From assembly GCA_020725885.1 (NCBI GenBank), contig DYEA01000007.1:310001-374000 (forward strand): a stretch of 64,000 nucleotides of DNA. Direction: 5' to 3'. A model generated the notes under the pieces. It worked only from the letters and a program-made list of their open reading frames with translations. It was not told where the DNA came from and ran no database searches. Made by a program: the position numbers and the translations under genes. The stretch's first letter is position 1. Each line of letters opens with the position of its first letter. Origin of the DNA: Slackia sp. (GTDB lineage Bacteria > Actinomycetota > Coriobacteriia > Anaerosomatales > Anaerosomataceae). Positions 44,815 through 50,625 of this stretch are shown piece by piece.

Positions 44815-45603
44815 TCACACCTCCTCCGGAACGAGCGCCTCGCGCAGCACTCGCAACGTCTTGCGCAGCATGCGCGAGACCTGCATCTGCGAGACGCCGA
44901 GGCGGGATGCGATGTCCGTCTGCGTGAGCCCTTCGAAGAACCGCAGGTACAGCACCTGCTGCTCCAGCGGGCTCAGCTGCTTCAACCCCTCGGCGAGCGT
45001 CGCCCGGTCCTCGACGACGTCGATGAGGTGGTCGTTCTTGCCCACGTACTCGAGGATGGAGAACGTCGAGTCCTGCGAGTCGCTGTTGCGGTCGCTTTCG
45101 AGCGACACGAAGTTGTACGCCTCGCTCGACTCCAGCGCTTCGAGCACCTCTTCTGCGCTCGCGCCCACGCGCTCCGCGATCTCCTCGATGGTCGGAGCGC
45201 GCTTGAGCTCCTGCGTTAGAGAGTCAAGCGACTGGTTGACTTTGAACGAGAGCTCCTGCAGCCGGCGCGGCACCTTGACCGCCCAGCCCTTGTCGCGGAA
45301 GTGCCGCTTGATCTCGCCGACGATCGTCGGGGTGGCGTACGTCGTGAACTCCACGTCCCGGTCGACGTCGAACCTGTCGATGGCCTTGATGAGCCCGATG
45401 GTGCCGACCTGGACCAGGTCGTCGAGCGGCTCGCCGCGGTTGCGGAACCTGCTCGCGAGGTAGCGCACGAGGTTCAGGTACATCGAGACCAACTCGTCGC
45501 GTGCCGCTTCGTCGCCATTCTCACGGTACCGGCGGAACAGCTCGCGGGTCCGGGCCTTGTCCCACACGAGGCGGCGGACGGGCTTCTTCGAGGAAGCGGA
45601 CAC
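44815..45603 (-). CDS. SigB/SigF/SigG-family RNA polymerase sigma factor
   Basis: This 262-residue sigma-70 factor has regions 2 (DELVSMYLNLVRYLASRF, DLVQVGTIGLIKAIDRFD, EFTTYATPTIVGEIKRHFRD), 3 (KVPRRLQELSFKVNQSLDSL) and 4 (LSPLEQQVLYLRFFEGLTQTDIASRLGVSQMQVSRMLR). This matches the stress/sporulation group. GAGGAG lies five bases before the GTG at 45603; an alternative GTG lies six bases upstream and overlaps the rsbW-like stop. The adjacent RsbW-like protein is its likely anti-sigma factor. Confidence 0.93.
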   Translation of the reverse strand: MSASSKKPVRRLVWDKARTRELFRRYRENGDEAARDELVSMYLNLVRYLASRFRNRGEPLDDLVQVGTIGLIKAIDRFDVDRDVEFTTYATPTIVGEIKRHFRDKGWAVKVPRRLQELSFKVNQSLDSLTQELKRAPTIEEIAERVGASAEEVLEALESSEAYNFVSLESDRNSDSQDSTFSILEYVGKNDHLIDVVEDRATLAEGLKQLSPLEQQVLYLRFFEGLTQTDIASRLGVSQMQVSRMLRKTLRVLREALVPEEV

Positions 45604-45605
45604 CG

Positions 45606-45998
45606 TCACTCCTCGCCAGACAGCCGCTTGACGATCCGCAACCGCGTACCGTCCTCGCCGGGCTCGACGACGAAGGTGTCGCACACCGCCTCGAGGATGA
45701 AGGCCGCGTAGCGACCGGGCGCGTCGTCCAGGGCCGCTTCAAGATCCGCACGGCCCGCGACGGGGCCGACGCACATCGTCAGCGCGTCGTCGGACAGATC
45801 GAACTCGAACACCACGGTGCCGTCGGGGCCGGTACGGCCGCACGCGTACACGAACGCCTCGTCCGCGGCCATTCGAACGTCCTCGACCTGGTCGTAGGGC
45901 ATGCCGAGGCGGACAGCCAGCTCGGAGGCGGCCATGCGCACCGTGCGTGCGTACTCTCCCCGCGCGGGGACGGTCAGACTGACGCGTTCTGCAGCCAT
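45606..45998 (-). CDS. RsbW-like anti-sigma factor / GHKL ATPase
   Basis: This 130-residue protein has the RsbW/SpoIIAB fold pattern: VSLTVPARGEYARTVRMAASELA, the helix VEDVRMAADEAFVYACG in the N-box position, and GTRLRIVKRL at the end. The N-box asparagine of SpoIIAB-type kinases is replaced (EAFVYA instead of EACTNA) and a clear G1 box DxGxG is not seen. Kinase activity is therefore doubtful while sigma binding remains likely. No RsbV-like antagonist is in the window. Confidence 0.8.
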   Translation of the reverse strand: MAAERVSLTVPARGEYARTVRMAASELAVRLGMPYDQVEDVRMAADEAFVYACGRTGPDGTVVFEFDLSDDALTMCVGPVAGRADLEAALDDAPGRYAAFILEAVCDTFVVEPGEDGTRLRIVKRLSGEE

Positions 45999-46420: not shown

Positions 46421-47719
46421 TCAGACCTCGCGTCCGGCCTGTCGCCCGAGCTCTCCCTCAGGCCCCTCCCGCCGGTAGAACCGCGCGCCCGACAGCTCCT
46501 CCGGAAGGTAGGTCTGACGTTTGGCCTCCTCGGGCCGGTCGTGCGGGTAGACGTACTCGGGGTACGCCTCGGCGCCTGGCCGGTGCCGGTCGCGCAGGTG
46601 CTCCGGGACCGCTGCCGCCGGACCGCGCTCCACCGCCGCGAGAGCCTCGTCGATCGCCCGGTAGCACGCGTTCGACTTGGGAGCCAGCGCGAGGTAGATG
46701 GCAGCGTGCGCGAGGTTGATGCGGCACTCGGGAAGCCCGACGAACTCGGCCGCCTTGACCGCCGCGTGCGCGACGAGCAGCGCCTGCGGATCCGCCATGC
46801 CGACGTCTTCCGAGGCGAAGATGAGCATCCTGCGCGCGATGAACTTCGGGTCCTCCCCTGCCGCGATCATGCGGGCGAGGTAGTAGACCGCAGCGTCCGG
46901 GTCGCTCCCCCTCATCGACTTGATGAACGCCGATGCGACGTCGTAGTGCTCGTCGCCTGCTCTGTCGTAGCGGAGGTGCCGCGTCTGCGTGACTTCTGCG
47001 ACGAGCTCTGGGGTGATGCGCCGCTCTCCCCGCGAGTCTGCCGCCGCCAGGCCCGCCGCGAGCTCGAGCGCGTTCAGCGCCGCGCGCGCGTCGCCGGAAG
47101 CGGCCCGCACGATGCGGTCCTCGGCTTCGGGCTCCAGCATGACCGAACCGCCGAGCCCTCGCTCCTGGTCAGCCACCGCCTGACGCACGATCTCGCGCAC
47201 CGCCTCGTCCGAGAGCGCCCGCATGACGATGACGCGGGATCGGCTGATCAGCGGCGCGTTGACTTCGAAGAACGGGTTCTCGGTGGTCGCTCCTATGAGC
47301 ACGATCAGACGGTCTTCGACCGCGTGCAGCAGCGCGTCTTGCTGCGACTTGTTGAAGCGGTGGATCTCGTCGATGAACAGGATCGTGCGGACGCCGGATA
47401 TGGCGAGGTGGTCGCGAGCCTGCTCGATGAGCGCCCGGACCTCCTTGACGCCGGCGGTCACAGCCGAGAGCTCGACGAAGCGCGCTTTCGTCGCAGACGC
47501 GATGACGCGCGCGAGGCTCGTCTTGCCGCAGCCTGGCGGCCCATAGAGGATGACCGAGGACAGCGTGTCCGTCTCGATGGCGTGGCGCAGGAACGTCCCT
47601 GGACCGACCACGTCGTCTTGTCCGACGATCTCGTCCAGCGTCCGCGGCCGCATGCGCACGGCCAGCGGAGCCGCTGCGGCGAGCGCGTCGCCGGCGCTCG
47701 CTGAGAACAGGTCGTCCAT
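46421..47719 (-). CDS. rarA: Replication-associated recombination protein RarA/MgsA
   Basis: This 432-residue AAA+ clamp-loader-like ATPase has Walker A YGPPGCGKTSLARVIA, Walker B LFIDEIHRFNKSQQDALL, sensor 1 GATTENPFFEVN, and the C-terminal tetramerisation region ARMIAAGEDPKFIARRMLIFASEDVG. It acts at stalled replication forks. MDDLFSAS at 47719 was chosen as the start; the upstream extension overlaps the lipoprotein gene. Confidence 0.95.
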   Translation of the reverse strand: MDDLFSASAGDALAAAAPLAVRMRPRTLDEIVGQDDVVGPGTFLRHAIETDTLSSVILYGPPGCGKTSLARVIASATKARFVELSAVTAGVKEVRALIEQARDHLAISGVRTILFIDEIHRFNKSQQDALLHAVEDRLIVLIGATTENPFFEVNAPLISRSRVIVMRALSDEAVREIVRQAVADQERGLGGSVMLEPEAEDRIVRAASGDARAALNALELAAGLAAADSRGERRITPELVAEVTQTRHLRYDRAGDEHYDVASAFIKSMRGSDPDAAVYYLARMIAAGEDPKFIARRMLIFASEDVGMADPQALLVAHAAVKAAEFVGLPECRINLAHAAIYLALAPKSNACYRAIDEALAAVERGPAAAVPEHLRDRHRPGAEAYPEYVYPHDRPEEAKRQTYLPEELSGARFYRREGPEGELGRQAGREV

Positions 47720-47730
47720 CGGCCGGCGCG

Positions 47731-48282
47731 TCACTGCGTGGCGCGCAACACCTCGCGCTCGATCACGTCGCGGTCGACGAACCCGAGCCACCGCCAGGTG
47801 ATGAACCCGCCGCTGTCGACCACGATGATGTACGGCGTGCTCTTCACGCCGAGGTCGGTCGCGAACGACGCGGCGCGCTTGACCGCATCGCTCGGCGAGC
47901 CGGACTTCGGGAGCGTGACGTCGAAGGTCACCAGGTCGATGAGCCCGCGATACTCCTTCAGCACGGCATCGATCTCAGCGCGCTGCTGCTTCGTCTCGGA
48001 CTCGGTGGTGTCGTAGAAGAAGAGGATCATCGGCCGCCCGGCGTCGAGCTTCGACTTGACCGATTCGGGCATCGCCGTCGAGATCTGCGATGGGAACGGG
48101 ACCGCCGTCGGCGTCTCCACCGGCGACCGGTCGACGACCTGGGGCTGCTGCTGGCCAGAAGAAGCCGGGGGCGGGGGCGTCTGGCTCTGGGCCTGCTCCG
48201 TTCCGCCACCTCCTCCTCCGCCGCATCCGACGAGCGCGAGCGCACACGAAGCGACGACGATGGCTGCGATGATCCTGCGCAT
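47731..48282 (-). CDS. Thioredoxin-fold lipoprotein lacking CXXC
   Basis: This 183-residue lipoprotein has signal peptide MRRIIAAIVVASCALALVGC with a lipobox (LVGC). A Gly run and a Pro/Gln-rich linker (about 27-60) follow, then a thioredoxin-like domain (about 75-183; RPMILFFYDTTESETKQQ, VTFDV, GVKSTPYIIVVDSGGFITWRWLG). The redox CXXC is replaced by DTTE, so it is not a classical oxidoreductase; cis-Pro is retained in STPY. It starts at the ATG at 48282 with GGGAGG six bases upstream, directly after the structured RNA candidate. Confidence 0.8.
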   Translation of the reverse strand: MRRIIAAIVVASCALALVGCGGGGGGGTEQAQSQTPPPPASSGQQQPQVVDRSPVETPTAVPFPSQISTAMPESVKSKLDAGRPMILFFYDTTESETKQQRAEIDAVLKEYRGLIDLVTFDVTLPKSGSPSDAVKRAASFATDLGVKSTPYIIVVDSGGFITWRWLGFVDRDVIEREVLRATQ

Positions 48283-48310
48283 CGACACCCTCCCGATCTC
48301 GGCACAGCAC

Positions 48311-48484
48311 GTACTTCGCCTCGCGCGCTCCGGCAGGTGAACCTGCCTCAGCAGGTGGGTGCCCGCACCGCGGCTTCGCGCTTCCTCAGCAAGGAGGATC
48401 CCGTTCCGCCGAGGGATCGTTAGGGCTCCCTGTCAAGAAGTGTTGGTTCGACCGATTTGGCCGAAGCAGCGCAAGGCGAAGCAC
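48311..48484 (-). ncRNA. Candidate structured RNA with 16-bp closing helix
   Basis: The minus strand can fold into a closed multi-branch structure. The closing helix pairs 48484-48469 with 48326-48311 (16 bp, two G-U). Inside are a 7-bp hairpin (48465-48459 with 48453-48447, one G-U), a 6-bp hairpin (48418-48413 with 48402-48397), a 4-bp hairpin near 48369-48358 and a 6-bp hairpin with loop UUCA (48347-48332). The three G-U pairs become A-C mismatches on the plus strand, pointing to minus-strand transcription. A TACGAT element ends four bases before the helix. The 3' arm ends 28 bases before the lipoprotein start, so it could be its leader or a separate RNA. No known family was recognised. 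Confidence 0.45.
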
Positions 48485-48530: not shown

Positions 48531-48839
48531 CTATGGCCGCGACGCCCGGTCGCCGTCGGCCTGATCTGTCAACCTGCGGGTCAACGAGACGTGGGCGCGC
48601 ACGTAGCCGAACGACGCCAGCCCGGCCGCTACGAGGATCGCCGCTGCCGCCACCGGCTCGCCGCGGCGGGACCACGCCGCGACGGCGCCGAGCGCGACGA
48701 GGGTCGCCACGCCGAGCGCGCGCATCGCGTACGCGTAGGTGCGGGACGTGAAGTCCCAGCCGGTCAGGGTGCCCACTGCGATGAACGTGGTGGACGACAG
48801 GATCACCACCACGACCGCTGCGATGAGCTCCCCCGACAC
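48531..48839 (-). CDS. Small membrane protein (unknown)
   Basis: This 102-residue protein has three likely membrane segments (about 4-24, 38-57 and 63-82) and a charged C-terminus. It starts at a GTG with GGGGAGG four bases upstream and lies 16 bases after aspS, so it is probably co-transcribed. No family is recognised. Confidence 0.65.
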   Translation of the reverse strand: MSGELIAAVVVVILSSTTFIAVGTLTGWDFTSRTYAYAMRALGVATLVALGAVAAWSRRGEPVAAAAILVAAGLASFGYVRAHVSLTRRLTDQADGDRASRP

Positions 48840-48855: not shown

Positions 48856-50625
48856 TCACTCCGTCCGCAGGTGCACCTCGCGCAGCTGGCGCGCGCTCAC
48901 GGGCGCCGGGGCGCCGGTGAGCGGGCACGCGCCAGACGACGTCTTCGGGAACGCGATGACGTCGCGGATGGAATGCTTGCCTGCGAGCAGCATGACCAGC
49001 CGGTCGAGCCCGAGCGCGATCCCGCCGTGCGGCGGCGCTCCGTACGCGAGCGCGTCGAGCAGGAAGCCGAACTGCTCGCGGGCGTCCTCCTCGCCGATGC
49101 CGAGCACCGCGAGCACCCGCCGCTGCAGCTCAGGGTCGTGGATGCGCAGCGTGCCTCCGCCGACCTCCACGCCGTTCATCACGAGGTCGTACGAGTACGA
49201 AAGCACCGACGCCGGATCCGACTCGATCCGGTCCAGGTGCTCGTCGAACGGCCGCGTGAACGGGTGGTGGTTCGCGGACCACTTGTCCTCTTCGGTGTCC
49301 CACTTGAACAGCGGGAAGTCCACCACCCACAGGCACGAGAACCCGCCTTTGACGAGCCCGAGCTCGCCCGCGAGGTGCGTGCGGAGCGTGCCGAGCACCT
49401 CGTTGGCAGCCATGCGCTCGTCAGCGGCGAACAGCACGAGGTCGCCGGGCGCCACGCCGAGGCGCTCGCGCAGCGCCGCCATCTCCTGCTCGCTCAGGAA
49501 CTTCGCAATCGGAGAGCGCACCTCTCCTTCGGAGGTGAACGCGATCCACGCGAGGCCTTTCGCGCCCGCCTCTTGCGCGACGGGCTGCAGCGCGTCGATG
49601 CGCCCGCGGCTCCAGTCCCCCGCGCCAGGCGCGGCGATGGCCTTCACGGCCCCGCCGGCCTCGAGCGCCGATGCGAAGACCTTGAACGCGCTGCCCGCGA
49701 AGACGTCCGACAGGTCGTGCAGCTCCATGCCGAAGCGCGTGTCCGGCCGGTCGCTGCCGAAGCGGTCCATCGCCTCGGCGTACGTCAGCCGCGGCAGCGG
49801 CAGCGGCAGGTCGACGCCCGCTTCGCGCACGACCTCGTGCATGACCTCTTCCATCATCTGGAGCAGGTCGTCTTGCGTGACGAACGACATCTCGATGTCG
49901 ACCTGCGTGAACTCGGGCTGCCGGTCGGCGCGCAGGTCCTCGTCGCGGAAGCAGCGCGCGATCTGGTAGTACCGCTCGATGCCGCCGACCATCAGCAGCT
50001 GCTTGTAGAGCTGCGGGGACTGCGGCAGCGCGTAGAACTCGCCTGGGTTGAGGCGGCTCGGGACGATGAAGTCGCGCGCGCCTTCTGGCGTCGAGCGGCC
50101 GAGCATCGGCGTCTCGACCTCGATGAACCCGCGGTGTTCGAGCGCCTTGCGGAACCGCTGCGTGATGCGGTCGCGCAGCACGAGCGCTTCGAGCACCTCG
50201 GGCCGCCGCATGTCGATGTAGCGGTGCTTCAGGCGAAGCGTCTCGTCCGTGGCGATCGCCGTATCCACCTCGAACGGCGGCGTCTCGCTCTTGTTCAGCA
50301 CCTCGGCCTCGGCGACGAGCACCTCGACCTCGCCGGTCGCGAGCGCCGGGTTCTCGGTGCCCGGCGGGCGCTTCCGGACGGTGCCCGAGACCCTCACGAC
50401 CCACTCGGGCCGCACGGCCTCTGCCACCGCGAACGCCGCCACCGACTCGGCCGGGTCGAACACGCACTGCACGAGGCCGCTTCTGTCGCGCAGGTCGACG
50501 AAGACGAGCCCGCCGTGGTCGCGGCGCCGGTGCACCCAGCCTGCGAGCGTGACGCGCTCGCCGACGTCTGACGCGCGCAGCGCGCCTGCGACGTGCGAAC
50601 GGATGGAGTAGCGGGCGTCGAACAT
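48856..50625 (-). CDS. aspS: Aspartyl-tRNA synthetase, probably non-discriminating
   Basis: This 589-residue bacterial-type AspRS has an anticodon-binding OB fold (1-about 110), a class II core ([62 protein letters not shown]) and the GAD insertion (about 285-415). In the OB fold RRRDHGG places His at the position that marks non-discriminating enzymes in Pseudomonas, where E. coli has Leu. It may therefore also charge tRNA-Asn with aspartate for amidation by GatCAB. It starts 12 bases after hisS. Confidence 0.96.

Follow-up and report, generated by a model that had tools for sequence, protein, structure and literature searches.

Sequence, covariation and gene order point to a 6S RNA gene between aspS and a lipoprotein gene in a coriobacterium

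Within a stretch of 64,000 nucleotides from Slackia sp. (hereafter the window), the minus-strand element at positions 48485-48309 is almost certainly the 6S RNA gene of a coriobacterium, a conclusion that is drawn from comparative sequence data. 6S RNA is a small RNA that resembles an open promoter and silences RNA polymerase when cells are at rest. This kind of RNA is already known, and we claim the gene described here (ssrS/bsrA-like) as a new member of the family, not as a first report. The Rfam model for 6S RNA (RF00013) matches the element at full length (model positions 1-187), scoring 46.0 bits at an E-value of 4.5e-8 in a cmscan of the region, and this is the sole match in the genome. 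Because the curated cut-off for the family (its gathering score) is 46.4 bits, a standard Rfam scan misses the gene by 0.4 bit, and no Rfam family was found in the whole window at curated cut-offs. Matches to the Streptomyces-metK and Transposase-2 RNA families in the region were weak (E-values of 1.6 and 1.9) and were rejected as chance.

An earlier note on this DNA had proposed a new structured RNA unlike 6S at 48311-48484, while stating that a match to any known Rfam family would speak against novelty. The proposal of novelty fails, as RF00013 covers the element over the whole model with the E-value given above. Other parts of the note were sound. The minus strand does encode a structured RNA, a promoter element stands immediately 5' of it, and the RNA lies in a gap of 248 bases that runs from the end of a small open reading frame at 48531 to the ATG of a lipoprotein gene at 48282. 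The proposed extent was nearly right, the RF00013 match being slightly longer at both ends. Two observations can be held against the 6S identity, namely the shortfall of 0.4 bit relative to the curated cut-off and a minimum-energy fold of the window sequence that places hairpins inside the central bubble. We consider the identity settled because orthologues at the same locus in relatives score above the RF00013 cut-off.

Homologous DNA is present in 57 of the 61 genomes searched, the window's own genome included. Within the order, RF00013 matches at E ≤ 0.1 are found in 53 of 61 genomes, and 37 of the 61 exceed the curated cut-off, with a top score of 87.5 bits. In the class, a match at E ≤ 0.01 occurs in 272 of 298 genomes (52 above the cut-off), and a sample of the phylum gives matches in 106 of 296 genomes, among which 69 exceed the cut-off and the best reaches 102 bits. 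When a control panel was searched at E ≤ 0.01, matches appeared in only four genomes (Escherichia coli, Bacillus subtilis, Caulobacter and Synechococcus), all of them above the RF00013 cut-off. Looser thresholds also yield matches in unlikely genomes such as that of Haloferax, and weak RF00013 matches that stand alone are therefore not to be trusted. The weak matches among the relatives are supported by conservation of the locus. As a separate observation, the class-wide counts mean that the curated cut-off misses most coriobacterial copies of 6S RNA.

The fold is genuine and specific to the minus strand. Compared with 200 dinucleotide shuffles, the segment 48311-48484 folds to -92.1 kcal/mol against a shuffle mean of -67.7 (z = -5.32, none of the 200 as good), whereas the plus strand of the same segment reaches a z-score of only -1.98. 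The three G-U pairs that the earlier note had listed on the minus strand are present, being A/C on the plus strand, and the long closing helix that it drew is part of the minimum-energy fold. Its internal hairpins also belong to the energy minimum of the single sequence, but most of them break in relatives. Placed on an alignment, the minimum-energy fold pairs 76.8% of cells and has a covariation score of 0.167, and its helices are 54-77% paired, the exceptions being the closing helix and one small hairpin where the bubble ends. Given these values, the multi-hairpin fold was rejected as a conserved structure.

We compared it with the canonical 6S fold, comprising a closing stem, a GAACC/GGUUC inner stem, a central bubble, the GGGAGCCC/GGGCACCC pairing and an apical arm. 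Across 33 aligned sequences from the class, this fold pairs 96.7% of cells, and 17 of its 34 pairs are changed on both sides. Its covariation score of 0.353 compares with 0.195 for shuffles (0 of 500 reach 0.353) and with 0.05-0.11 for controls in which partners were slid (maximum 0.114), although these tests favour the canonical structure, which was itself derived largely from the consensus of those sequences. The independent Rfam model RF00013 is free of that bias. Covariation among relatives, the check for which the earlier note had asked, thus supports the canonical 6S fold, whereas the multi-hairpin fold as drawn does not hold. In the window sequence, enforcing the 6S hallmark pairs costs about 3.6 kcal/mol (-90.1 versus a minimum of -93.7). 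The coriobacterial RNA is GC-rich, unlike known 6S RNAs, and for this reason a fold of the single sequence closes the bubble with hairpins.

The helices that frame the bubble are almost fully paired. The closing stem (helix 1 of the canonical structure), whose 5' strand lies at 48463-48481 on the minus strand in the CTTCGCCTTGCGCTGCTTC region, has 97.9% of its cells paired and five pairs changed on both sides. Beside the bubble, the inner closing stem is formed by GAACC (48445-48449, minus strand) as its 5' strand and by GGTTC at 48339-48343, and this GAACC/GGUUC helix is 99.4% paired in the 33 class sequences; deeper in the phylum it carries compensatory replacements, for example of A-U by U-A and U-G. 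On the other side of the bubble, GGGAGCCC (48423-48430, minus strand) contributes the 5' strand of the apical arm and has its partner, GGGCACCC, at 48357-48364. This pairing holds in 100% of the 33 sequences, with a compensatory C-G to U-A change in four of them, and more double changes are seen across the phylum. The pairs flanking the bubble are nearly invariable within the class while showing double changes phylum-wide, including A-U to U-A or U-G at pair 38/146, G-C to A-U at pair 58/127, and C-G to A-U, U-A and G-C at pair 61/124. The 3' side of the bubble (ACCTGCTGAGGCA, 48344-48356, minus strand) can form a small hairpin, CCUGC-UGAG-GCAGG, that takes up the first bases of GGUUC and is conserved in the RNAalifold consensus at columns 144-166. 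A hairpin at the same position of the bubble has been described for B. subtilis and for lactic acid bacteria (PMC8414754).

The predicted template for the short product RNA (pRNA) lies on the 5' side of the bubble (AACACTTCTTGACA, 48431-48444, minus strand), which reads GAACCAACA. This template would run from a C of CCAAC (48442) into the closing stem. The CCAACA of the bubble is near-invariant throughout the phylum, and the predicted pRNA consequently begins with GUUGG in 22 of 24 aligned sequences. For the window we predict a pRNA of 5'-GUUGGUUCGACC, the start having been placed by homology, such that G residues occupy pRNA positions 4 and 5. Two G residues at positions 4/5 or 5/6 are a general mark of pRNAs (PMC8414754).

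Immediately upstream of the closing helix, where the earlier note had placed it, is the sequence TACGAT (48494-48489, minus strand), a TANNNT box preceded by TGC in the manner of an extended -10 element. We identify it from its sequence and position as the -10 element of the 6S RNA gene itself, and transcription is likely to start around 48485-48482. Of 37 loci of the order, 36 have such a TANNNT box immediately 5' of the RNA, mostly at a distance of 2-8 bases from the start of the match, as compared with a chance expectation of about 14% per locus. A strict scan for two-hexamer promoters gave no promoter-like site in the window, and so it is only the -10 part of a sigma-70-type promoter that is supported.

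By analogy with the 6S RNAs of E. coli and B. subtilis, the following course of events can be envisaged. The gene's own extended -10 promoter (TGC-TACGAT) would drive synthesis of an RNA of about 175 nucleotides, which would fold into a rod whose unpaired central bubble, as modelled, resembles an open promoter. During slow growth, this RNA would bind the holoenzyme of RNA polymerase with the primary sigma factor, the gene for which is present in the genome, and would thereby block many promoters. Upon a nutrient upshift, the polymerase would copy the bubble as a template, and synthesis of the predicted pRNA would lead to release of the RNA. That the RNA binds polymerase, serves as template for a pRNA and acts according to growth phase is inferred from the family. 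Some caution is suggested by the Streptomyces RNA Str11, which has 6S-1-like synteny and a 6S-like fold, yet failed to bind RNA polymerase (PMC9130861); function is not proven by fold and synteny alone.

A related concern is that the element might instead be an RNA of the Ms1 type, which looks like 6S RNA and binds the core of RNA polymerase without a sigma factor. Ms1 occurs in the same phylum and shares the 6S-like outline (PMC9130861), and it resembles the coriobacterial RNA also as a ligand of RNA polymerase, a property assigned to the latter by analogy. We give this reading a very small chance in view of the significant RF00013 match and the conserved sequence hallmarks of 6S RNA. The genomic setting differs as well, since the coriobacterial gene lies in the aspS/rarA synteny of Firmicutes 6S-1, whereas the Ms1 gene of Streptomyces coelicolor is found at sco3558-sco3559 (PMC9130861).

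The coriobacterial 6S RNA gene has aspS (aspartyl-tRNA synthetase, with tRNA-synt_2 and GAD domains; 48856-50625, minus strand) as its upstream neighbour, and beyond the lipoprotein gene follows rarA, which encodes an AAA ATPase of the MgsA family (46421-47719, minus strand; MgsA_C, E = 1.9e-61). Wherever the contig extends far enough, almost every locus of the order keeps the arrangement aspS, RNA, lipoprotein gene, rarA. Further out in the phylum, aspS still adjoins the RNA at most loci, and rarA at many. In Bacillus, bsrA (6S-1) sits between aspS and yrvM (PMC11077062), with rarA near 6S-1 (PMC8414754). This common neighbourhood suggests that the locus is shared by descent. The resemblance to E. 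coli ssrS and B. subtilis bsrA/6S-1 thus extends from length and closing stem to the bubble bounded by GAACC/GGUUC and GGGAGCCC/GGGCACCC, to the predicted pRNA template with GG at positions 4/5 and, for Bacillus 6S-1, to the locus between aspS and rarA. The coriobacterial RNA differs from known 6S RNAs in scoring just below the curated RF00013 cut-off and in having a lipoprotein gene within about 26 bases in place of a terminator.

The gene directly downstream of the RNA (47731-48282, minus strand) is predicted to encode a thioredoxin-like lipoprotein. Its match to Thioredoxin_2 (E = 1.1e-4) is below the Pfam cut-off, so the name is tentative. Although the open reading frame is listed from a GTG at 48288, the ribosome-binding site and the ATGCGCA that are conserved in relatives point to a start at the ATG at 48282. 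In 35 of 37 loci, the ribosome-binding site and the ATG of this gene are found 15-44 bases 3' of the RNA.

Such proximity could suggest that the RNA is a new riboswitch-like leader that acts in cis by hiding the ribosome-binding site of the lipoprotein gene. The RNA ends 26-27 bases from the lipoprotein ATG in most relatives with no terminator in between, and the gene remains downstream in loci of the order. The full-length match to RF00013 nevertheless makes this reading highly improbable, and what is conserved is the 6S bubble rather than an expression platform. Moreover, many deeper relatives that carry the RNA after aspS have no lipoprotein match within the 1.5 kb examined. The switch that the earlier note had suggested, in which CCUCC in the RNA would pair with the ribosome-binding site, has its sequence in the window (CCTCC at 48397-48393, minus strand) but lacks conservation. 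CCUCC occurs in 3 of 33 aligned sequences, and at the same place in two, which makes a conserved switch of this kind unlikely, and we rejected it on this count.

The same spacing can be read in a manner that is compatible with the 6S RNA identity. One transcript might serve as both the 6S RNA and the 5' leader of the lipoprotein mRNA, in which case output of the lipoprotein, and perhaps of RarA, would follow 6S transcription. We see roughly even chances for this arrangement, which accords with the conserved spacing of 15-44 bases and with the failure to find an intrinsic terminator in the window; an unseen promoter or a terminator that is not intrinsic is a possible objection. A precedent is provided by the dicistronic ssrS-ygfA of E. 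coli, where a longer transcript is processed to give the 3' end of 6S RNA. With no terminator before the lipoprotein gene, the 3' end of the coriobacterial 6S RNA probably also derives from processing of a longer transcript, and the lipoprotein gene is probably part of that transcript.

6S RNA has been described as widespread except in Actinobacteria (PMC9130861, PMC11077062), which are named in these papers as the one group without it; PMC9130861 makes no mention of Coriobacteriia. Among the papers searched, none dealt with 6S RNA in Coriobacteriia or its genera, although part of this distribution may already be recorded. The class-wide presence of 6S RNA in Coriobacteriia, together with strong matches at aspS-rarA loci elsewhere in the phylum, suggests that 6S RNA is ancestral in this phylum and gave way to Ms1 in certain branches. 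We lean slightly towards the overall view that Actinomycetota (Coriobacteriia and others) have retained 6S RNA of a Firmicutes-like type at an ancestral locus between aspS and rarA, that the Ms1 lineages lost it, and that in this order the transcript runs into the lipoprotein gene. If true, a thioredoxin-like lipoprotein in this order would be tied to 6S expression.

Two further features of the neighbourhood deserve mention. An open reading frame of 102 amino acids (48531-48839, minus strand), hydrophobic by eye, is located between aspS and the 6S RNA gene. It has no Pfam match, and tblastn finds homologues of low identity in about half of the loci of the order. Approximately 1 kb downstream of rarA, and thus near the 6S RNA gene, is a putative stress-sigma module (44815-45998, minus strand). 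It pairs a candidate alternative sigma factor gene (RpoD_Cterm, 108 bits, below the cut-off; contig positions 354836-355504, or 44836-45504 in the window) with a preceding open reading frame that, by eye, resembles an anti-sigma kinase of the RsbW type.
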